From the NCBI GenBank assembly GCA_026387935.1, contig JAPLKU010000014.1:182166-246165 (forward strand): a stretch of 64,000 bases of DNA. Direction: 5' to 3'. Shown here in pieces: positions 47,024 to 57,609 of this stretch. How positions within the stretch are numbered: position 1 is the stretch's first letter; each line of letters starts with the position of its first letter. The notes beneath the pieces were generated by a model that saw only the letters and a list, made by a program, of their open reading frames with translations, was not told the DNA's origin and ran no database searches. The stretch is from Gemmatimonadota bacterium (GTDB lineage: Bacteria; Gemmatimonadota; Gemmatimonadetes; Gemmatimonadales; Gemmatimonadaceae). The position numbers and the translations under genes are program-made.

Positions 47024-47797
47024 TCAGGCTTTCCGAAACCACGGCACGAACGCGCTGGTCGTGCGCTGGTACTCGCGGTACGCGTCGCCCTTGCTCTTCA
47101 CCGCGTACTCCTCGGTCAACGGAATGCCGGTGACCTTGAAGAGGAAGTAGAGCATGAGCAGCGGGCAGGCGATGGTAATCCAGCCCCAGGGCGAGCCGAG
47201 TGCGACCAGGAAGAACCCCCACCAGACGAGCGACTCGAAGAAGTAGTTCGGGTGCCGCGAGTAACGCCACAGCCCCACCTGGCAAACCTTGCCGCGGCTC
47301 GACGGATCGCGCTTGAACGCCTGCATCTGCAGGTCGGCGAGCGCTTCACCGAGCAGGGCAATGGCAGCCAATGCGAGCCCGGCGATTTCCACGAGCCGGA
47401 GTTCCGGCGCCGCGTTGTACGACGCAAAGACGAACGGCAGCGAAAACACGACCACCAGCATCGCCTGCAATTCGAAGAACACGAGGAACCGGCCCGCGCC
47501 CGGCCAGCGCTGGCGCAGCGTCTGGTAGCGCGCGTCCTCCGCCGGGTGGTGCCCCACGACGCGCACGAGAATGTAGGTGCCGAGTCGCAGGCTCCACGCA
47601 ACGCCGACCGCCGCAACAGCCCACTTCCGCAGTGGCAACCCCGGAGCCAGCCAGGCGTAGGTCGGCGCGAGAATGGCCACGCCATACGAAAACGCCACAT
47701 CGAGCAGTCCATAGTTCTTGATGCGCACACTGATCGCCCAGGTCACCGCGAAGTACGTAACGGCAATCGCGAACCCGATGCCAAGGAGCCCGATCAT
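47024..47797 (-). CDS. DUF1295 membrane protein (steroid-reductase / isoprenylcysteine-methyltransferase fold)
   Basis: A ~257-residue integral membrane protein with about six helices and the DUF1295 C-terminal signature (VGLWRYSRHPNYFFESLVWWGFFL, then GIPLTEEYAVKSKGDAYREYQRTTSAFVPW). This motif is shared with 5-alpha-reductase-like and isoprenylcysteine-methyltransferase-like enzymes. In this operon it could reduce a methylene or double bond on a modified fatty acid, which is a guess from context. ATG 47797 overlaps the DUF2062 stop (ATGA), so it is the last coupled gene of the lipid operon. Confidence 0.82.
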   Translation of the reverse strand: MIGLLGIGFAIAVTYFAVTWAISVRIKNYGLLDVAFSYGVAILAPTYAWLAPGLPLRKWAVAAVGVAWSLRLGTYILVRVVGHHPAEDARYQTLRQRWPGAGRFLVFFELQAMLVVVFSLPFVFASYNAAPELRLVEIAGLALAAIALLGEALADLQMQAFKRDPSSRGKVCQVGLWRYSRHPNYFFESLVWWGFFLVALGSPWGWITIACPLLMLYFLFKVTGIPLTEEYAVKSKGDAYREYQRTTSAFVPWFRKA

Positions 47798-48309
47798 GAT
47801 TCCCCTGGCGCAGTTGCGCGCGCCAGTGCGCGTAGCGCCGGGCGGACGGAGAAATAGACGGCACCGGCGATGATCGGGGCGACCAGGCACCAGACCGCGA
47901 TGCCCTGCACCGCCACCAGCCCGAAGTCAGCGAAGAACTTTCCAGTGTCGGCACGGAACCGCTCAATCAGCATCGGGATTGACAGCGGCAGATGCGGTTG
48001 CCGAAAGAGCGTCTCACCGGCGCGGTAGAACGGAATCAGCGCGAGCAGCTGCAAAGGGTACGCGACGTAGTTGACCAGCTGGATGATCGGCTGGTTGAGT
48101 CCCAGCCGGACGGCTGCCAAACCACAGAGGATCGTCGTTGCACCAAGAATCGGAAACACGCCGAGCACCAGCCCAAGCGCAATCGTCAATGAAATCTTTT
48201 CGGGCGTGATGCCCTGACGCAGCTGATTGACGAGCGGCGTGACCACGCGCCGCGTCCAGACCGAATGGGCCGGAGCGAGGAGCGTGGCAGCGGCTTCGGA
48301 ATCACTCAT
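47794..48309 (-). CDS. DUF2062 membrane protein
   Basis: A 171-residue integral membrane protein of the DUF2062 family: LRQGITPEKISLTIALGLVLGVFPILGATTILCGLAAVRLGLNQPIIQLVNYVAYPLQLLALIPFYRAGE. The family is linked with lipid and cell-envelope functions, but its biochemical role is not settled. It starts 12 bp after the cyclopropane-synthase gene and overlaps DUF1295 by four bases at its end. Co-transcription with lipid-modifying enzymes is the main clue to function. Confidence 0.82.
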   Translation of the reverse strand: MSDSEAAATLLAPAHSVWTRRVVTPLVNQLRQGITPEKISLTIALGLVLGVFPILGATTILCGLAAVRLGLNQPIIQLVNYVAYPLQLLALIPFYRAGETLFRQPHLPLSIPMLIERFRADTGKFFADFGLVAVQGIAVWCLVAPIIAGAVYFSVRPALRALARATAPGES

Positions 48310-48321
48310 CGCTGGTTGCGT

Positions 48322-49635
48322 CTACCACTCCTGATGAAGCGCGCGGTTGTTCGGCCGTGTGTACACCGCCTGCACCACACTGATGTTGCGGCTGGCAAAG
48401 GCGGCTTCGCAGTACTGAAGGTAGTAGTTCCACTTCCGGATGAACCGCTCGTCGAAGCCCAGCGACCGAACGGCGGGCAGCTGCGCATTGAAGTTTTCCC
48501 ACCACGCATGGAGCGTGCGGGCATAGCTGGAGCCGATATCCTCGAGGTCGTGCAGAAAGAGGTCACCCGTCCGACTGAGCGCTTCGTTCACGCGGCCGAC
48601 GCTGAGCAGCAGCGAACCCGGGAAGATGTGCTTCTGAATCCAATCGACGCCGCGCTTCAGTTCGGCGTGGCGTGAGTCCGGGACCGTGATGTACTGCACG
48701 CCCACGAGACCGCCGGGCTTGAGCACGGCATGAATCTTCGCGAAGTAGGTCTCGAGGTATCGGTCGCCAATGGCTTCCATCATCTCGATGGACACCACCT
48801 TCTCGAACTGCCCTTCGAGCAGGCGGTAGTCACGCAACTGCACGTCAACGCGGTCCGTCAGACCTGCGTTGAACACGCGCTCCTTGGCGAAGATGTACTG
48901 TTGCTCCGAAATGGTCACGGTCGTGACGCGGCAACGGTAGTGCTTGGCCGCATGGCAGGCAAAGCCGCCCCAGCCGCTGCCGATTTCGAGCACATGGTCG
49001 CTCGCCTGAATGTGCAGCTTTCGGCAAAGGGCCTCGTACTTCGCCACCTGCGCCAACTCGAGCGACTGTTCTGGCGCCGTGAAGTAGGCGCTGGAATAGG
49101 TCATCGTGCGGTCGAGCCAGAGTCGGTAGAACTCGTTGCCGAGGTCGTAGTGCTCGGCGATGTTGCGCCGGCTCGTGGCCATGCTGTTCGGGCGCAGCTG
49201 GTGCAGCACGCGGTTGTACGACTTGAGCAGGTTCAACGCGAGGCTGCGCGCCTTCGAACCCGACATCGCCGGCGAGTTCTCCACGTTAAGGACTGCCCAC
49301 GCGATGACGTTGGAAATGCTATCCGTTTCCCAGTCGCCGTCTACGTAGCTCTCGCCAAAGCCCACATCGCCGAAGAGCACGCACTTCTGGAAGAACGCGG
49401 GGTTGAGCACGCGGATGTGCGCGCTGGTGGCAGCGCCCGGCGTGCCAATCACCATCGTCGCACCGTCCGGGAGGTCGAGCCGCAGGCAGCCGGCCGTCAT
49501 TTTACGGAGCGAGTCGAGCACGATTCGCTGGTACAACCCGCCGGCTGCAACGGCGCTGCTCGCCGCGCTGCTCGGTTTGGTCGGTTGCGCCGCGACGCCG
49601 AACGAGGTGGAGTGGGCAGATGTGGATTCAGTCAT
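48322..49635 (-). CDS. Cyclopropane-fatty-acid-synthase-type SAM methyltransferase
   Basis: A 437-residue SAM-dependent enzyme. A helical N-terminal part leads to the methyltransferase core: EHYDLGNEFYRLWLD, MTYSSAYF, DHVLEIGSGWGGFACHAAK (SAM site), VTISEQQYIFAKER, VVSIEMMEAIGDRYLETYF and QKHIFPGSLL. It methylates a double bond in a membrane phospholipid acyl chain. The product may be a cyclopropane ring, or a methyl/methylene branch as in the ufaM type. The neighbours favour the latter, but it is not proven. ATG overlaps the DUF1365 stop. Confidence 0.9.
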   Translation of the reverse strand: MTESTSAHSTSFGVAAQPTKPSSAASSAVAAGGLYQRIVLDSLRKMTAGCLRLDLPDGATMVIGTPGAATSAHIRVLNPAFFQKCVLFGDVGFGESYVDGDWETDSISNVIAWAVLNVENSPAMSGSKARSLALNLLKSYNRVLHQLRPNSMATSRRNIAEHYDLGNEFYRLWLDRTMTYSSAYFTAPEQSLELAQVAKYEALCRKLHIQASDHVLEIGSGWGGFACHAAKHYRCRVTTVTISEQQYIFAKERVFNAGLTDRVDVQLRDYRLLEGQFEKVVSIEMMEAIGDRYLETYFAKIHAVLKPGGLVGVQYITVPDSRHAELKRGVDWIQKHIFPGSLLLSVGRVNEALSRTGDLFLHDLEDIGSSYARTLHAWWENFNAQLPAVRSLGFDERFIRKWNYYLQYCEAAFASRNISVVQAVYTRPNNRALHQEW

Positions 49636-50435
49636 GATGCCGTTCGGGAAATGGATGCGTGTGGCCTGAGGACGCCGCGTTGCAGACTGGCGTTGGCTTC
49701 CTTGCGATGCCAGGGAATGCGCTTCAGCCAGAGCAGCGCCGCGTGCGCGTGGATCAGGCCGATCACCTTGAGCGTGATGAGCGGGTACTTCAGCGTGAAC
49801 CAGGCGAGGCGCGCAGCCGTGAGCGGCTCGCGCCGGCCGGTGAGTGACGTGAGCAGGACACGATCGCTGCCGTCGCGGTCATCAATGTGAATGTCGAGAC
49901 GCTCATCCGGAACGCGAAGCTTGAACTCGAATGCCAGGTTCAGGTCGAAGAACGGCGAGACGTAGAAGTGTTTTGGCGTCAGGCGCCGAAACTGGCCGTC
50001 GCCGGCGCGTTCATCGATCAGGTAGGGTTTGAGTTCGCCGTACGTGTTGCCGACTTCGGCGATCGCGTAGAGCGGCCGGCCCTCCGCGTCGGAGCAGAAG
50101 TAGAACGAGACCGGATTGAACACGTGCCCGAGCACGCGCGGCAGCGTCACGAGCAGCATGCGGCCGCCCGCCGGAAACTCGATTCCCTGCGCGGCCAGCC
50201 ACCCGATCACCTGGTCTTTGACGCTCGTCGTCTCGCGTCCGGGCAACGTCAGGTGATCCCGGTCGCGAAAGGCGTACAGATTGGCGCGGTTGCGACTGAA
50301 GAACGGAATGCGCGCGGCCACGGCGTCGATCTCGTCGAGATCCAGCGCGAACATGAAGATGCGATACCGGAAGTGGTGCACCTTCGGCGCGAGCCGATGA
50401 TGCATCACTCGGCACTCGTACAGGCAGGAGTTCAT
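49632..50435 (-). CDS. DUF1365 protein
   Basis: A ~267-residue protein of the DUF1365 family: CLYECRVMHHRLAPKVHHFRYRIFMFALDLDEID, RDHLTLPGRETTSVKDQVIGWLAAQGI, LVTLPRVLGHVFNPVSFYFCSD, AIAEVGNTYGELKPYLID and KHFYVSPFFDLNLAFEFKLRVPDE. The family nearly always sits beside FAD oxidoreductases and cyclopropane-type methyltransferases, as here. The step it performs is unknown. ATG 50435 overlaps the FAD-oxidoreductase stop, and its own stop overlaps the methyltransferase start. Confidence 0.88.
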   Translation of the reverse strand: MNSCLYECRVMHHRLAPKVHHFRYRIFMFALDLDEIDAVAARIPFFSRNRANLYAFRDRDHLTLPGRETTSVKDQVIGWLAAQGIEFPAGGRMLLVTLPRVLGHVFNPVSFYFCSDAEGRPLYAIAEVGNTYGELKPYLIDERAGDGQFRRLTPKHFYVSPFFDLNLAFEFKLRVPDERLDIHIDDRDGSDRVLLTSLTGRREPLTAARLAWFTLKYPLITLKVIGLIHAHAALLWLKRIPWHRKEANASLQRGVLRPHASISRTAS

Positions 50436-51706
50436 GCCCAGATCGCCTCGCCGGTAACGGCGCGGGCGCATTCAAGCGCGCTGGTGAATCCGTCCTCGTG
50501 GAAGCCGTACTTGAACCACGCCCCGGCGTAGTACGTCGCCTGCTCCGGACTGATCCGGTTGAGCTGCGGCAGCTCGCGTTGCGCCGCGACCGCCGCGGTG
50601 TCGAAGAGCGGATGCTCGTACTCGATACGGCGCAGAACTTTCTCCGGCGCCACACGGTCGTGGCAATTGAGCGACACGAAATAGTCCTCGCGCTCCGACA
50701 CGCCTTGCAGGCTGTTCATCCAGTAGTGAATAGTCGGCCGCTCAGTGCCGTCCGTCATCGGATCGATTCGGTAGTTCCAGCTCGCCCAGCACAGGCGCGT
50801 ACGCGGCATGAACGACGGATCGGTGTGCAGCGTCGCCGTGTTCGGCTGGTACCTGAAGGCGCCAAGCAACCGCGACTCGGTATCCGTCGGGTCGGCCAGC
50901 AGCGCGAGCGCCTGATCGCCATGACAGGCGAGGATGACTTTGTCAAAGTCGCGCACTCGGCCGGCTGCGTCGGTGACCATGGCGCGACTTCCGCGCCGCT
51001 CCACGCGCACGGCCCTGTTCCACAGTTGAACGCGGTCGCCGAATGGTGCGGTAATCTTCTTGACGTAGGACTGCGCGCCGCCCACAACGGTATACCACTG
51101 ATGCTGCGTGCGCATGCCGAGGAACCCGTGATTGTGCCAGAAGCGAATCAGCGTCATGGCGGGAAAGTCGAGCATCCGGTCCGGGGGCGTACTCCACACG
51201 GAGGCGCTCATCGGCACGAGGTAGCGCTGCAACATGTCATCGCCGTACCCGCGTTCCTTGACGTACTGGCCAAGCGTATGTCCCGCCCAACGCGGGTCAT
51301 CGAGCGCGCCGACCGCCTCGTCGTTGAAGCGATTGATGGCCATCAGCATGCGCCAGTGCCGCAGGCTGAGCAGGTTGCACCGCTGCCCGAATAGCTGACC
51401 CAGACTGCTCCCGTTGTACTCGAGGCCGCTGGGCGTATGCTGCACGCTGAACGACATCTCGGTGGGCTTGGTCTGCACGTCCAGTTCGCGGAACAGCCGC
51501 GTGAGGTTCGGATACGTGACATGGTTGAACACCATGAACCCCGTATCGATCGGCACGGCGCGGCCCTGCTCGTTGACCGTGATCGTGTTGGTGTGGCCGC
51601 CGACGTAGTCGTTCTGCTCGTAGAGCGTCAGGTCAAACCGCTCGTGCAAGAAATGCGCACAGCCAAGTCCAGCGACCCCCGTGCCGATGATGGCGAGGGT
51701 CTTCAC
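50432..51706 (-). CDS. FAD-dependent amine-oxidase-like oxidoreductase
   Basis: A 424-residue flavoprotein. The FAD-binding start is MKTLAIIGTGVAGLGCAHFL, followed by NDYVGGHTNTITV and PIDTGFMVFNHVTYPNLTRLF. The conserved WMNSLQGV and terminal YYAGAWFKYGFHEDGFTSAL segments are as in oxidoreductases beside DUF1365 and cyclopropane-type methyltransferases. It could oxidise or desaturate a methylated fatty acid. GTG at 51706 overlaps the desaturase stop (GTGA), and its stop overlaps DUF1365. Confidence 0.9.
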   Translation of the reverse strand: MKTLAIIGTGVAGLGCAHFLHERFDLTLYEQNDYVGGHTNTITVNEQGRAVPIDTGFMVFNHVTYPNLTRLFRELDVQTKPTEMSFSVQHTPSGLEYNGSSLGQLFGQRCNLLSLRHWRMLMAINRFNDEAVGALDDPRWAGHTLGQYVKERGYGDDMLQRYLVPMSASVWSTPPDRMLDFPAMTLIRFWHNHGFLGMRTQHQWYTVVGGAQSYVKKITAPFGDRVQLWNRAVRVERRGSRAMVTDAAGRVRDFDKVILACHGDQALALLADPTDTESRLLGAFRYQPNTATLHTDPSFMPRTRLCWASWNYRIDPMTDGTERPTIHYWMNSLQGVSEREDYFVSLNCHDRVAPEKVLRRIEYEHPLFDTAAVAAQRELPQLNRISPEQATYYAGAWFKYGFHEDGFTSALECARAVTGEAIWA

Positions 51707-52686
51707 TGCGCGGCTCGTACGGCCTGCGCCTCATCGTACACGCTTCGTGGAACCGATTTCAGGTTCCAGATCAACCCGGTCCAGGACAACGCCTTCAGTG
51801 CGTAGTAGGTCGGATCAAACTCCCACCAGTAGAAGCCCTGACGGGCGGCACCCATGAAACGGTGGTGGTTGTTGTGCCAGCCTTCTCCCAGCGTGATGAG
51901 CGCCAGCACGAAACTGTTCCGGCTGTCGTCGCCGGTGTTGAAACGCCGCCGCCCCATGACATGTGCGAGCGAGTTGATGAAGAAGGTTCCGTGTAGCAGC
52001 ACCGCCGTGCTGACAAAGAACCCCCAGACGAACAGCTGACCGCCCGACGTACCCAGACCGGGTGCGACGGAACCAAGCAGCGCACCGACCCCGTAGAGCA
52101 GTGCGCCGAATAGTGCAGGCACGATGAGATCGAAGCGGTTGAGGAAGACGAGTTCAGGGTACTTCGCCAGATCGCGAACGGCATCATAGTCAGTAGGGAA
52201 ATTGCGGCTGCTGGTCATCCAGCCGATGTGGGACCACCAAAATCCGGTCAAGCCCGGTGAATGCACGTCGTGATCAGTATCGGCGTGCTTGTGATGATGG
52301 CGGTGGACCGCCGCCCACCAGAGCGGGCCCCGCTGCACTGACGTATTTCCGAGAACCGCAAACGCGAACTGCGTCCAGCGTGCGGTGCGAAATGTCCGAT
52401 GCGAGAAGTACCGGTGATAGAATGCCGTTATCGCGAACATCCGCACCCAATACAGCGCCGTGGCCACGACCACCGCCGTCCAACTCCAGCCCACCCACAC
52501 CAGGCCAACACAACCCAGGTGCAGAAAGACAAACGGAAGGCAGCGGCGCCACTCGAACCGGTCGGGCCGCTCACGCACGACCTGCGCCCCTTCCGGGAAG
52601 TAGTCAGAGTCGAACCACTGACGCATCGTCACCAGAGCGCGGTGCAGAGGATGGCTGCCAGCGACAGGAACGGTGGAGGTCGACAT
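51703..52686 (-). CDS. Membrane acyl-CoA/acyl-lipid desaturase (delta-9-like)
   Basis: A 327-residue integral membrane di-iron desaturase. The three histidine boxes are HRYFSHRTF, HRHHHKHAD and GWHNNHHRF, with four hydrophobic spans between. It introduces a cis double bond, probably at the delta-9 position, into long-chain acyl groups. In this operon it would make the unsaturated substrate for the downstream methyltransferase. Its stop overlaps the start of the FAD oxidoreductase by four bases. It follows the thioredoxin-like gene by 26 bp. Confidence 0.92.
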   Translation of the reverse strand: MSTSTVPVAGSHPLHRALVTMRQWFDSDYFPEGAQVVRERPDRFEWRRCLPFVFLHLGCVGLVWVGWSWTAVVVATALYWVRMFAITAFYHRYFSHRTFRTARWTQFAFAVLGNTSVQRGPLWWAAVHRHHHKHADTDHDVHSPGLTGFWWSHIGWMTSSRNFPTDYDAVRDLAKYPELVFLNRFDLIVPALFGALLYGVGALLGSVAPGLGTSGGQLFVWGFFVSTAVLLHGTFFINSLAHVMGRRRFNTGDDSRNSFVLALITLGEGWHNNHHRFMGAARQGFYWWEFDPTYYALKALSWTGLIWNLKSVPRSVYDEAQAVRAAQ

Positions 52687-52712
52687 CTGCGGTCGGGGCG
52701 GGAGGGGACGAT

Positions 52713-53333
52713 CTAGCGGGACGCGTGCACAGCAGCCGGTATGCGAGCAGGCACGCCGGTCGGCAAAACGGTTCCCGCGTGCGACTCGAGCGAGTCGAGT
52801 GTGGCCGCAAGCCCTGCAGCCGCGCCGGCGGTAAACCGGCCGTCAGTGCGCCAGAGAATCCTACCGTCGCGCGCCACCAGAAAGGTGCTGATCCGATCTT
52901 CCGTCGCGATGGCCAACGCCTTTTTGAACGGCGACTTGTCGATGTAGAGCGTGATCGTTGCTTCACGGGTCGCGCGCTCGGGGATACCCCGCGACATGCC
53001 GCCGTCAATGAAGCCCCGCATGAACCGGTACGTCTTGTTCAAAGTGGGCAGCTCATACACGCGCACGTGGCGGGCTGGAGTAGCCACCTCGCGCAAAAAC
53101 GGAAGCCAAGTATCAACGTCATTCTGCTGTTCCCGCCGAAAGGCGACCAGGACGATGTTGTAGTCGCCCTCAAAGTCGGTAGGAAGCGTGAACCTCCGGC
53201 CCTCGAGGTTGCTCCCCTCAACGCGCGGAAACTGCCGAATGGAATCAACCATGGAGGTCTGCGGAATTTCGGCAAAATACGTTCGCTCTGGGCCGAGTCC
53301 GAACACAAGCAGCAGGGCGGCTATGGTATTCAT
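52713..53333 (-). CDS. Thioredoxin-fold (ATP10/TlpA-like) exported protein
   Basis: A 206-residue protein with a short hydrophobic N-terminus (MNTIAALLLVFGLGPERTYF). The middle resembles an extracytoplasmic thioredoxin-like fold (YNIVLVAFRREQQNDVDTWLPFL, then TEDRISTFLVARDGRILWRTDG). There is no CxxC, so it is unlikely to be a disulfide reductase; ATP10-like proteins also lack it. It lies 26 bp before the desaturase and probably starts the lipid operon. The assignment is moderate. Confidence 0.55.
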   Translation of the reverse strand: MNTIAALLLVFGLGPERTYFAEIPQTSMVDSIRQFPRVEGSNLEGRRFTLPTDFEGDYNIVLVAFRREQQNDVDTWLPFLREVATPARHVRVYELPTLNKTYRFMRGFIDGGMSRGIPERATREATITLYIDKSPFKKALAIATEDRISTFLVARDGRILWRTDGRFTAGAAAGLAATLDSLESHAGTVLPTGVPARIPAAVHASR

Positions 53334-53437: not shown

Positions 53438-53962
53438 CTACTTCGCGGCCGGCGGCATCACCACCGCGTCGATCACGTGAATCACGCCATTCGAGGCGGC
53501 CACGTCGGCGATCACCACCTGTGCACCGTTCACATACACCTTACCGCCCTTCACCTGGATGTCGAGCGCCGCGCCGTTCAGCGTGGCCGGCTTCGCGCCG
53601 TTGCCCTTGATCACGTCAGCAGCCATCACCTTGCCCGACACGACATGGTAGGTCAGGATGGAGGCGAGCTTCTTCGGGTCCTTGAGCAGCGCGTCAATCG
53701 TGCCGGCCGGGAGCTTTGCGAAGGCCGCGTCGGTCGGGGCGAACACGGTGAACGGGCCCGCTCCCTGCAGCGCACCAACGAGGTCGGCAGCCTTGAGGGC
53801 CGTGACCAGCGTCTTGAACGAACCGTTCGCGATCGCGACGTCCACGATCGTGTTGCTCTTGCTCATGTTGTCGTGTTTTTCAGCGGTCATCTGTGCACTT
53901 CCGGTGGTGGAGTTGAGGAGCAGGCCCGCGAGCGAAAGAACTACCATCTTCGTGCTGATCAT
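53438..53962 (-). CDS. Exported fasciclin-domain protein
   Basis: A ~174-residue exported protein: signal peptide [19 protein letters not shown], then one fasciclin (FAS1) domain, [68 protein letters not shown] and [16 protein letters not shown]1 domains mediate adhesion or envelope contacts. ATG 53962 and 53947 are both possible starts. It is divergent from the carH-like operon and shares its operator-like promoter. FAS1 genes are often beside CarH/LitR-type light regulators, which supports co-regulation. Confidence 0.9.
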
Positions 53963-54011: not shown

Positions 54012-54096
54012 AGTATCGCTAGACAACTTACGTTTGTCAAGAGGTTGTCCATGTCTATATCTTGACAATGCGTAGACAATCAATAGATTTGACCAA
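54012..54096. promoter_or_regulatory. Divergent promoter with GACAA/TTGTC operator array (fasciclin / carH)
   Basis: For the minus strand, TTGACA (54040-54035), a 17-bp spacer and GATACT (54017-54012) form a sigma70-like promoter for fasciclin. For the plus strand, TTGACA (54062-54067), a 16-bp spacer and TAGATT (54084-54089) precede the carH ATG at 54097. So transcription would start at or next to the start codon (leaderless). TAGACAA, TTGTCAA, TTGTCC, TGTCTA, TTGACAA and TAGACAA copies, spaced about 8-14 bp, overlap both promoters. This layout suits an oligomeric MerR-type repressor such as the CarH-like product. Confidence 0.7.
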
Positions 54097-55053
54097 ATGG
54101 ATGAAACACTCCTTGAACCTGCAGGACTGCCCGGCGCTGAACACCCAATTGCCGTGGTGGCCGAGCGCACGGGCCTCTCCCGCGACGTCCTGCGGGTGTG
54201 GGAACGGCGCTATTCGGCGGTTGCGCCAACCCGGACCCCGGGCGGCCAGCGCCTCTATTCTGACGCCGATGTCGCCCGCTTTCGTCTGCTCGCCGCCGCA
54301 ACGAAGCACGGACGGAGCATCAGCATGGTGGCCGGTCTCCCCACGGCCGAGCTTGAACGCCTTGTGGCCGAAGACGAGGCGGCCCGCCCAGCTGCCGCGC
54401 CCGTCCCACTCGCCGATGCCCACGCCGAACGTGTTTTACTTGCCCTGGAGCACACCCGGGCGCTCGACGGCACCAGCCTCGACCGCGTGATGCGTCGCGC
54501 CATCGCCCAGTTCGGCCTGTCGGCATTTCTCGAAGACATCGTGCCTCACTTGATGCACAGAATTGGCGACGAATGGCGTGGCGAACGGCTCACCATTGCA
54601 CAAGAACACCTCGCGTCGGCCGCCGTCGTCGCCATCATCCTCGAATCCATTCGCGCCGTTCCCGAAGCACCGGATGCGCCGCGCCTGCTCGTCACGACTC
54701 CGTCCGGCGAACGCCACGCCGTAGGCGCGGCACTCGCGGCTGCCGCCGCCGCCATTGATGGGTGGACGGTGATCTATCTCGGCGTCGACGTTCCCGCGGC
54801 TGACATCGCGACGGCCGCTGCGACCACCGGCGTCCGCGCCGTGGCACTGAGCGTGGTCTACGCCGACGATCCCGCGCAAATCTCAAGGGAACTGCATGCC
54901 TTGCGTGCGAAGCTCGCGCCCAACGTTCCTCTCCTTGTCGGCGGCGTCGCTGCGATGCTGATGTCAGCGGAACTGGAGCAACCTGGCATGGTCCTCTGCG
55001 GAAGTATCGCCGAGATGCGCGCGGTACTCGCGCGCGAGGCGATCGCCGCGTGA
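54097..55053 (+). CDS. CarH/LitR-like adenosylcobalamin photoreceptor (MerR family)
   Basis: A 318-residue MerR-family repressor. The HTH is at residues ~18-85 (VVAERTGLSRDVLRVWERRYSAVAPTRTPGGQRLYSDAD). The helical bundle contains Trp160, then nine residues, then Glu170-His171 (WRGERLTIAQEH), the Wx9EH motif that caps adenosylcobalamin in CarH proteins. The cobalamin-binding domain has E205-x-H-xx-G (GERHAVG), a SVVYADD block and VGG. Known CarH proteins hold DNA as tetramers in the dark and let go when light breaks the cobalt-carbon bond. The operator-like array upstream fits autoregulation. No ribosome site precedes the ATG, in line with a leaderless mRNA. Confidence 0.9.
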   Translation: MDETLLEPAGLPGAEHPIAVVAERTGLSRDVLRVWERRYSAVAPTRTPGGQRLYSDADVARFRLLAAATKHGRSISMVAGLPTAELERLVAEDEAARPAAAPVPLADAHAERVLLALEHTRALDGTSLDRVMRRAIAQFGLSAFLEDIVPHLMHRIGDEWRGERLTIAQEHLASAAVVAIILESIRAVPEAPDAPRLLVTTPSGERHAVGAALAAAAAAIDGWTVIYLGVDVPAADIATAAATTGVRAVALSVVYADDPAQISRELHALRAKLAPNVPLLVGGVAAMLMSAELEQPGMVLCGSIAEMRAVLAREAIAA

Positions 55054-55517
55054 CGCACCGACTCGCGCGAACCACTGTGTTGCCCGGGACCGTCAGTCAG
55101 GTGTTCGAGTTCTTCAAGAACCCACGCAATCTCGAAGCGATCACGCCTCCCTGGCTTGGGTTCCGGATTCTCTCCACGAGCGACGAGACGGTGCGTGAAG
55201 GCACGCGCATCCGGTATAGGCTGCGCCTTTTCGGGATTCCGCTCGCGTGGGAATCGCGCATTACCGAATATGCAGGCGATTCGCACTTCGCCGATGAGCA
55301 GGTGACCGGCCCCTATGCACTCTGGTACCACCGCCACCTCTTCCGTCAGTTGCCGGAGGGCGTCGAAATGACCGATGACGTCGAGTATCGCCTGCCGTTC
55401 GGTCCGCTCGGACGGCTCGTGCACTGGCTCGTTGTCCGTCACCAACTCCGCGCCATCTTTGACTATCGCACGGCTGCGATCGCCCAACGTTTCCCCACCA
55501 CGAGGCCCGTCACATGA
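55050..55517 (+). CDS. SRPBCC-family (cyclase/dehydrase-like) protein
   Basis: A ~155-residue protein with the START/Bet v1-like pattern: TVLPGTVSQVFEFFKNPRNLEAITPPWLGFRIL, YRLRLFGIPLAWESRITEY, FADEQVTGPYALWYHRHLFRQLPEGVEMTDDVEYRLPFGPLG. It probably binds a hydrophobic ligand such as a lipid or polyketide-like molecule. GTG at 55050 overlaps the carH stop (GTGA), so it is coupled to the photoreceptor. This gene type commonly follows carH/litR regulators. Confidence 0.83.
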   Translation: MTHRLARTTVLPGTVSQVFEFFKNPRNLEAITPPWLGFRILSTSDETVREGTRIRYRLRLFGIPLAWESRITEYAGDSHFADEQVTGPYALWYHRHLFRQLPEGVEMTDDVEYRLPFGPLGRLVHWLVVRHQLRAIFDYRTAAIAQRFPTTRPVT

Positions 55518-55912
55518 ACACCCTGTCGTTCCTGAAGAGCTTCGCCGCCACCGGCGCGACGATGTTTGCGCTCGACATGGTCTGGCTCGGTGTGGTGGCG
55601 AAAGGGCTGTACGCGCGCGAAATGGGCTCGTTGCTCCGACCCGATGTGAAATGGGTGCCGGCCCTGCTCTTCTACATTCTGTATGTGGCGGCAGTGGTCG
55701 TGTTTGTCGTGATCCCCGCCGCAGAGCGAAAGTCGCTCGCGCGCGCACTCGGGTTCGGTGCGTTTTTCGGGCTCGCGGCGTACGCGACCTACGACCTGAC
55801 GAGCCTCGCGCTCATTCGGGATTTCCCTGTGCTCATCGTGATCGTTGACCTCGCCTGGGGCATGGTGCTCACGACCATCGCGTCGGGCGCAGGGTACGCG
55901 GTAACGCGGTAG
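55514..55912 (+). CDS. DUF2177 membrane protein
   Basis: A ~132-residue integral membrane protein of the DUF2177 family, with four hydrophobic spans and the motif AALDMVWLGVV-type (FALDMVWLGVVAKGLYAREMGSLL), then RALGFGAFFGLAAYATYDLTSLALI. Function unknown. Its ATG overlaps the SRPBCC stop (ATGA). It ends R-TAG-CCG at the left edge of the inverted repeat. Confidence 0.85.
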   Translation: MNTLSFLKSFAATGATMFALDMVWLGVVAKGLYAREMGSLLRPDVKWVPALLFYILYVAAVVVFVVIPAAERKSLARALGFGAFFGLAAYATYDLTSLALIRDFPVLIVIVDLAWGMVLTTIASGAGYAVTR

Positions 55913-56127: not shown

Positions 56128-57609
56128 CTACCGCGGGAACGGGCTCGCGAATCGAATGTCGTTGAGGAATGTCTGATCCGTCAGCGTAGCGAGGAACGCC
56201 ACCAGGGCGGCGCGTTCGGCGGCGGTCAGATTCAGGCGCTGCGGCTGCCCGCCGCGCCCGCCCACCAACCGCGGATCGAGCCCCGGGTTGGGCTGGACAC
56301 CGGAATCATAGAAGGCCACGACCTGGTCGAGCGACGTGAAACGACCGTCGTGCATGTAGCGCCCACGCACGGCGACGTTGCGCAGTGAAGGCACTTTGAA
56401 CGTGCCTCCCCCGGCACCGACATCCGTGATGGTTGCATCGAGACCGGTGTTGTGGATGTCGTCGGCGCTCAACGCGACTGTGGTGTGGCAGCGCGCACAG
56501 TTCGGGCCAAAGAGCGCGAACCCCTGCTGCTCCTGCGGCGTGAATACCGTCGCCGTCCCGCCGGTCGCGGTCAATGCTTGATCGAACTTGGCGCCGCCGG
56601 AAACCAGGGAGCGCACGAATTGCGCCACCGCGAGCGCAATCCGCTCTCTGGTGATCGTCGACGTCCCGAACGCAGCAGTGAATAACGCAGGATAGTAAGC
56701 CGTTAAGGCCAGCTTCTTCTCCAGCAGATCGAGCGTCATGCCCATTTCGACCGTGTCCTGAATGGGCCGCAGCACCTGATCCTCAAGAGTGACTGCGCGT
56801 TCGTCCCAGAAGAACCGGCCGCGCGCGTAATACCGTGCATTGGCGAGCGACATCGAGTGGCGGCCGGTGAAGCCGCCCTTGAAGCCGCCGCTCAGGCGGG
56901 CCGTGTCGGCAAAACCGCGCGATTGCACGTGACACGATGCGCAGGCCTGCGCGTCGTTGGCGGAAAGTCGTTTGTCATAGAACAGCACGCGCCCGAGCGC
57001 TGCGCCGGCGTTGGTGACGGGATTGCTGGCCGGCGTGTTGTCGAAGGCGTTCGCGCCCCCAAGGCCCCCGCCACCGCCGGGCGGCCCGCCCGCTGCACGG
57101 AAGTGCGCCGGCACATTGCCGTCGGCGTCGGAATACTTAAGTGAAGGATCGAGCGTGGGTGTTGCGAGGCCGGCCGCGAACGCAATGACGTCGAACGCAT
57201 CTGTCGCCGTCGCTCCCGCGCCGTCTGTTGCCGTGATCGTGACCGATACGAGGCCCGTGGTCGCCGGGGTGCCACTCAACTTCCCGGCAGCCGCCACCAA
57301 ACCGTTGGCTGCCGGCACAAGCGTGACCGTGTACGTGAGCCCCTTCCCCGCGACGTCCTTGAAGGTGGTGTTGCCGCGCGTAGCGTCGTAACTGAACACC
57401 GTACCTACGGTCGCAGCCTGCGACGGGTTGTGCGTGGCGAGTGTGACCGGGCCAGCCGCCGGCGTGGTGCCGGTCGTGGTGCCGGTCGTGGTGCCAGTGC
57501 CTTTCGGGGCCGTGGCGGCCGGCGTCGAATCCGACGAGCCGGCGCAACTGGCGCAGCAGACCAAGCCTGCGAGTGCGGCGACAGAGCGTATGAAGGTGTG
57601 TGTGCGCAT
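56128..57609 (-). CDS. Di-heme cytochrome c peroxidase-family lipoprotein (MauG/CcpA-like)
   Basis: A 493-residue exported protein. The N-terminus has a lipobox-like VCCASCAG, then a Thr-rich linker and an Ig-like putative (He_PIG) domain (VSVTITATDGAGATATDAFDVIAF). The peroxidase part has two heme c sites, ACASCHVQSRGF and NCARCHTTVALS, then VPSLRNVAVRGRYMHDGRFTSLDQVVAFYDSG. It reduces peroxides in the periplasm or oxidises another redox partner. The linker is encoded by a 12-bp tandem repeat. Convergent with DUF2177, on the far side of the inverted repeat. Confidence 0.88.
   Translation of the reverse strand: MRTHTFIRSVAALAGLVCCASCAGSSDSTPAATAPKGTGTTTGTTTGTTPAAGPVTLATHNPSQAATVGTVFSYDATRGNTTFKDVAGKGLTYTVTLVPAANGLVAAAGKLSGTPATTGLVSVTITATDGAGATATDAFDVIAFAAGLATPTLDPSLKYSDADGNVPAHFRAAGGPPGGGGGLGGANAFDNTPASNPVTNAGAALGRVLFYDKRLSANDAQACASCHVQSRGFADTARLSGGFKGGFTGRHSMSLANARYYARGRFFWDERAVTLEDQVLRPIQDTVEMGMTLDLLEKKLALTAYYPALFTAAFGTSTITRERIALAVAQFVRSLVSGGAKFDQALTATGGTATVFTPQEQQGFALFGPNCARCHTTVALSADDIHNTGLDATITDVGAGGGTFKVPSLRNVAVRGRYMHDGRFTSLDQVVAFYDSGVQPNPGLDPRLVGGRGGQPQRLNLTAAERAALVAFLATLTDQTFLNDIRFASPFPR
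57463..57498 (-). repeat. Three 12-bp tandem repeats encoding the Thr-Gly linker
   Basis: CGTGGTGCCGGT occurs twice and is followed by CGTGGTGCCAGT. On the minus strand this gives repeated Gly-Thr-Thr/Gly-Thr units between the lipidation site and the Ig-like domain. Unit number can change in frame without harm. Confidence 0.75.

Follow-up and report, generated by a model that had tools for sequence, protein, structure and literature searches.

The stretch analyzed here, a 64,000-nucleotide window of a Gemmatimonadota genome (Gemmatimonadaceae; assembly GCA_026387935.1, contig JAPLKU010000014.1, positions 182,166 to 246,165), carries seven minus-strand genes (47024-53333) that include homologs of the furan fatty acid enzymes UfaD, UfaO and UfaM, and are divergent from a gene for a CarH-type protein. 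An earlier note on this DNA had described seven packed genes on one strand with carH and FAS1 genes next to them, and this layout is borne out by the Pfam and NCBIfam matches and the coordinates; every family that it named was recovered at its place in a Pfam search. The first of the seven genes encodes a protein of 206 amino acids without a Pfam family (52713-53333; no match even at E ≤ 1). It is followed by an acyl-CoA-type (delta-9-like) fatty acid desaturase (51703-52686; FA_desaturase PF00487, E 6.6e-21), a flavin adenine dinucleotide (FAD) protein homologous to UfaD (50432-51706; Amino_oxidase/NAD_binding_8, E 1.3e-19), a DUF1365 protein homologous to UfaO (49632-50471; PF07103, E 1.5e-75), a CMAS methyltransferase homologous to UfaM (48322-49635; PF02353, E 9.3e-82), a DUF2062 membrane protein (47794-48309; PF09835, E 2.3e-10) and a DUF1295 membrane protein of the steroid-5-alpha-reductase/ICMT-like type (47024-47890; PF06966, E 1.5e-69). 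The 4-nt overlaps said to join these genes are present as called at two junctions (desaturase/FAD protein and DUF1365/CMAS), and at two more (FAD protein/DUF1365 and DUF2062/DUF1295) if the genes begin at internal starts (50435 and 47797), as their translations make likely; the CMAS and DUF2062 genes are separated by 12 nt, and the 206-amino acid gene and the desaturase by 26 nt. Upstream, on the same strand, lies a gene for a secreted FAS1 (fasciclin) protein (53438-53962; PF02469, E 3.5e-40), whose open reading frame (ORF) opens at 54079 and whose start, at about 53962, was placed from the signal peptide. It is probably the first gene of the transcription unit.

In the alphaproteobacterial ufa pathway, UfaM methylates cis-vaccenate, the FAD protein UfaD converts the product by desaturation into a methylated conjugated diene, and UfaO, a DUF1365 protein, closes the furan ring with O2; the three enzymes are sufficient in vivo, and DUF1365 proteins form furans in the two species tested (PMC7380195). 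In Rhodopseudomonas palustris they are encoded together (RPA2571-2569, in the order ufaD-ufaO-ufaM); Rhodobacter sphaeroides has ufaM at RSP2144, ufaD at RSP1091 and ufaO at RSP1090, with RSP1087-1089 dispensable for the product (PMC7380195). The comparison with ufaD, ufaM and ufaO made earlier thus pointed to the right route, but counted only two of its enzymes in the window: as DUF1365 is itself UfaO, the trio is complete, and it is arranged as in R. palustris. As a stand-in for R. sphaeroides we used its close relative Cereibacter johrii, located with the R. sphaeroides reaction center L protein (100% identical). This species has one DUF1365 protein, whose gene lies in a cluster with gene sizes matching RSP1091-1087, and one full-length CMAS protein. 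The window proteins are 41.5% (UfaD, over 422 amino acids), 36.4% (UfaO) and 42.2% (UfaM, over 389 amino acids) identical to their counterparts. DUF1365 and full-length CMAS proteins are likewise single-copy in the window genome, and a search of that genome with C. johrii UfaD returned the window UfaD at E 2.9e-95, with the next match at E 4.7e-4, so that orthology is supported for all three. By homology, the locus encodes all three enzymes of the furan pathway. No other route was found at the level searched. By sequence, no PDB entry is related to DUF1365, and a single-sequence AlphaFold model of UfaO was discarded as unusable (mean predicted local distance difference test score, pLDDT, 43).

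A search of 249 genomes of the phylum for DUF1365 gave 35 matches, 34 of them above the cut-off, and we read 34 loci (the window and 33 relatives); since some contigs end close by, the gene counts are lower bounds. UfaD and UfaO are present in all 34 loci and UfaM in 33, with the desaturase and a second S-adenosylmethionine (SAM) enzyme in 26 each, DUF1295 in 19, CarH in 11 and DUF2062 in 4. The trio is collinear in 33 of the 34 loci, which argues that the grouping of the genes is not due to chance. The 206-amino acid protein has homologs in five of the loci, conserved at the same place in L035 and L038 and divergent in L033 and L034. Outside the phylum the trio is also collinear in Acinetobacter, Salinivibrio, Mesorhizobium, Azospirillum, Rhodococcus and Paracoccus. 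On a plasmid of Acinetobacter piscicola (pYH12207-1, L078) the order is desaturase-ufaD-ufaO-ufaM-DUF1295-second methyltransferase; Salinivibrio has MerR-phrB upstream of ufaD-ufaO-ufaM; in Mesorhizobium (M. terrae) the trio occurs with sigma/ChrR and with genes for fasciclin, DUF1295 and a second methyltransferase; Rhodococcus groups an alpha/beta hydrolase, the FAD protein, DUF1365, CMAS and DUF1295; and in Paracoccus the trio is followed by a major facilitator superfamily transporter and a short-chain dehydrogenase. Given this recurrence, the desaturase and DUF1295 are known company of the trio. Of the three genes that had been taken as additions to the pathway, only DUF2062, confined to its four loci, still stands as a new point. 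In one relative (L044) a desaturase-ufaD-ufaO locus lacks a nearby ufaM and its DUF1365 matches profile positions 1-195 only; a short DUF1365 remnant elsewhere in that genome points to a decaying or rearranged operon. Among the plasmid collection matches (H15), a 5.37-Mb "Klebsiella pneumoniae plasmid" record (CP125156.1) carries DUF1365 and an FAD oxidoreductase; at this size, the record is probably a mislabeled chromosome.

Membership of the CMAS family, and similarity to cyclopropane synthases in NCBIfam, would also fit a simpler account, in which the desaturase product is turned into a cyclopropane by the methyltransferase and the FAD and DUF1365 proteins serve other functions. E. coli Cfa binds bicarbonate through Glu239, His266 and Tyr317 (PMC11387697). 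In the window UfaM, Glu239 and Tyr317 are kept, but His266 is replaced by Gln, and the neighboring His240 by Ala. This A240/Q266 combination, as opposed to H240/H266 in E. coli Cfa, is common to the window UfaM, C. johrii UfaM, all 32 phylum relatives compared and, in each of the named clusters compared, the first methyltransferase. Cotton cyclopropane synthases also carry Gln at position 266 (PMC3132707), so the pattern marks a clade rather than a product and is compatible with cyclopropanes; for the same reason the exchange of His266 was rejected as proof against cyclopropane formation. A serine in place of C139 proved unsuitable as a signature, since the cysteine is kept in 20 of the 32 relatives. 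Phylogenetically, the operon UfaMs form one group and E. coli Cfa falls outside it (97/96), in a tree that has a single Cfa, on a long branch. The window protein scores below the cut-off of all cyclopropane-synthase equivalogs in NCBIfam, Cfa H266 and H240 are replaced in every member of the group, and UfaD and UfaO homologs accompany UfaM in 33 of the 34 loci. We therefore regard ordinary cyclopropane fatty acids as an unlikely product of this operon.

A product without a furan ring could also be envisaged, either a mid-chain methyl-branched (tuberculostearate-like) lipid or a methylated diene, with UfaO in another role. Mycobacterial members of this methyltransferase family have been linked to 10-methyl stearate, and the route described consists of an FAD-binding oxidoreductase and a methyltransferase (PMC5660069). 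The 10-methyl route is not known to need a DUF1365 protein. A parallel with Mycobacterium Rv0449c-Rv0446c was set aside as evidence. The Rhodococcus grouping could be taken in favor of such a lipid, but DUF1365 is always present at these loci and is the furan former in the two species tested (PMC7380195). A lipid of this kind appears slightly less probable still than cyclopropane fatty acids, and production of a furan remains the reading that we favor.

The substrate for UfaM may be provided within the operon. The desaturase has three histidine boxes (HRYFSH, HRHHH and HNNHH), it matches acyl-CoA desaturase 1 in the PDB (E 3.4e-29), and it is 51% identical to the desaturase encoded by the first gene of the Acinetobacter plasmid operon. 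A search for PF07977 (FabA-type) did not find a stand-alone FabA in the window genome; the matches are confined to an LpxC-FabZ fusion and a 2715-amino acid multidomain ORF, so that the double bond is likely to come from an oxygen-dependent desaturase. The multidomain ORF (G000 contig C1:226737-228299; L071-L073) has three FabA/FabZ-type dehydratase matches in a row and resembles a polyunsaturated or secondary-lipid synthase. The genome also encodes a second fatty acid desaturase, with a front-end-like QIEHH box (L066, G000 contig C6:114330-115154), next to amidohydrolase-like and BNR-repeat-like proteins.

DUF2062 is restricted to the window, L035, L038 and L043, a clade of four genomes, and within the phylum never occurs in the same locus as the second SAM enzyme; it replaces the FufM-like methyltransferase of most relatives. 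A CMAS search did not find a FufM-type second SAM enzyme in the window genome. R. palustris FufM and Arabidopsis AT4G33110 share 38% identity (PMC10940516), and one of the second enzymes of the relatives has coclaurine N-methyltransferase as its best match in the PDB. From these similarities we infer that both are of the coclaurine-N-methyltransferase type, and relatives with the second enzyme would thus probably make dimethyl furans. The exact and non-overlapping exchange of DUF2062 for this enzyme, together with the retention of DUF1295 in all four DUF2062 loci, might suggest that DUF1295 and DUF2062 modify the furan fatty acid further into an undescribed lipid, an idea that overlaps with the reading preferred here. 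However, RSP1087-1089 of R. sphaeroides are dispensable for the product (PMC7380195), and DUF2062 and DUF1295 have no assigned chemistry; we hold further modification to be rather unlikely, if less so than a product without a furan. The two proteins are perhaps accessories that place the lipid in the membrane or handle it.

The protein encoded divergently from the operon (54097-55053, plus strand) has CarH as its best NCBIfam match, below the cut-off (133.5 of 400 bits). It keeps the W-x9-EH (as WRGERLTIAQEH), E-x-H-x-x-G (as ERHAVG) and RxWERRY motifs, and thus has the W-x9-EH and D/E-x-H-x-x-G/P motifs by which vitamin B12-dependent CarH is recognized (PMC9304148). In CarH operators, 11-bp repeats (nnnnTnnACAn) follow one another across the promoter, and the known operators have three or four repeats, some of them degenerate (PMC9304148). 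Two putative repeat pairs lie back to back between carH and fas1, with two full repeats each: an operon-side pair (54035-54051, minus strand), formed by the two tandem 11-bp repeats TGGACAACCTC-TTGACA, which overlaps a -35-like TTGACA, and a carH-side pair (54062-54078, plus strand; TTGACA-ATGCG-TAGACA). The pattern TNNACAN5TTGACA matches once in 64 kb, where 0.03 matches are expected, and the operon-side pair is conserved in relatives. Among the 31 tandem-repeat matches in 456 kb of the loci read, 18 lie within about 150 bp of the 5' end of carH, covering 10 of the 11 carH-bearing loci; as the pattern was chosen after viewing these regions, the counts describe conservation and are not an independent test. 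The pattern does agree with the published consensus, which was read afterwards (PMC9304148). Repeat pairs of the same type also precede desaturase or DUF2177 genes at a distance from carH (L039 4422, L045 4786 and L060 2412, in oriented coordinates), which suggests a wider CarH regulon.

Neither the anti-sigma factor ChrR, as part of the sigma-E/ChrR control that is typical but not required for this pathway, nor a photolyase, a frequent neighbor elsewhere, was found in the window genome. Light-inducible ufaM clusters under LitR are known from Pseudomonas putida and P. mendocina (PMC9758184), and in Vibrio cholerae a putative CFA-synthase gene is reported to be induced by blue light (PMC5241685). 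The light control that the earlier note had suggested from the adjacent carH and FAS1 genes is supported by the intact CarH motifs and the two repeat pairs; light-inducible ufaM under a regulator of the LitR/CarH family had already been published for Pseudomonas (PMC9758184).

Beyond carH, the plus strand encodes an SRPBCC (polyketide cyclase-like) protein (55050-55517; PF03364), whose gene adjoins carH and lies within the ufa operon in several relatives, and a DUF2177 membrane protein (55514-55912; PF09945, E 4e-43), a recurrent neighbor that is also seen in Phyllobacterium. Convergent with the DUF2177 gene, near carH, is a gene for a MauG-type di-heme cytochrome c peroxidase (56128-57609).

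Combining the gene content, similarity, order and repeats observed here with enzyme chemistry and a CarH switch taken from the literature, we consider it probable that the operon is derepressed by light and directs the synthesis of a monomethyl furan fatty acid. CarH with bound adenosylcobalamin would, in the dark, occupy both repeat pairs between carH and fas1 and repress transcription in both directions; in the light, adenosylcobalamin would be destroyed and CarH released. The operon desaturase would then produce a delta-9 monounsaturated chain, UfaM would methylate the double-bond carbon nearer the carboxyl end and shift the double bond, UfaD would introduce another double bond, yielding a methylated conjugated diene, and UfaO would insert oxygen from O2 and close the furan ring. 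A delta-9 chain would be converted to an 8,11-epoxy-9-methyl product, in which the furan spans C8-C11 and the methyl group is at C9; starting from 16:1 this would be 7-(3-methyl-5-pentylfuran-2-yl)heptanoate, as opposed to the 9M5-FuFA made from cis-vaccenate. The product may act as a singlet-oxygen scavenger in the membrane. Its shifted ring is predicted because the operon has a delta-9-type desaturase and a stand-alone FabA was not found; the substrate position, like the light response and the scavenging role, is something that we infer.

Several points weigh against this scenario. Identity to the functionally tested enzymes is only moderate, and the Q266 signature is shared with cotton cyclopropane synthases (PMC3132707). 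The position shift assumes both delta-9 specificity of the desaturase and the regiochemistry of R. sphaeroides UfaM, and the substrate might be provided or changed by the second, front-end-like desaturase. As the assembly has a completeness of about 95%, absences from the genome are provisional. An undescribed lipid from this operon is possible. More tentatively, and with odds that we would put below even, the full combination may apply: CarH would control an operon whose dedicated delta-9 desaturase supplies UfaM, UfaD and UfaO, the product would be a furan fatty acid with a shifted ring that is so far undescribed in bacteria, and DUF2062 and DUF1295 would take the place of the second methylation enzyme of most relatives.

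The locus is the known ufa pathway in variant form, rather than a new kind of system. It shares the three enzymes, the R. palustris order and the UfaM active-site signature with the pathway of R. sphaeroides and R. palustris (PMC7380195). It differs in having the acyl-CoA desaturase, DUF2062 and DUF1295 in the operon and CarH instead of sigma-E/ChrR, in lacking a FufM-like enzyme, and in its likely delta-9 substrate in place of cis-vaccenate. The Acinetobacter cluster on pYH12207-1 resembles it in the order desaturase, ufaD, ufaO, ufaM and DUF1295, but has a second methyltransferase, no DUF2062 and no CarH in the stretch read. Like the window, the Pseudomonas clusters combine a LitR/CarH-family repressor with ufaM beside an FAD oxidoreductase gene, but they use a class II LitR with a LOV photoreceptor (PMC9758184), whereas the window has a CarH with the full B12 photoreceptor motifs and putative operator repeats of the Thermus/Myxococcus type. 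The carotenogenesis operons under CarH in Thermus, Bacillus and Myxococcales share the CarH motifs, and their 11-bp TnnACA repeats over a TTGACA -35 element (PMC9304148) resemble the putative operators here; in the window, in contrast, the target would be lipid modification instead of carotenoid genes, and there are two repeats per pair rather than three or four. What is new is the version with DUF2062, the putative CarH promoter and, probably, the shift in furan position.

Furan fatty acids are membrane antioxidants against singlet oxygen made by light, and the enzymes that form them, identified in 2020, have been tested in two alphaproteobacteria. The window and its 33 relatives extend the furan pathway to another phylum, where it comes with a desaturase of its own and a B12 light sensor. 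The exchange of DUF2062 for FufM offers a handle on two uncharacterized membrane families and, if the proposed control is true, the perception of light would be tied directly to a singlet-oxygen scavenger.

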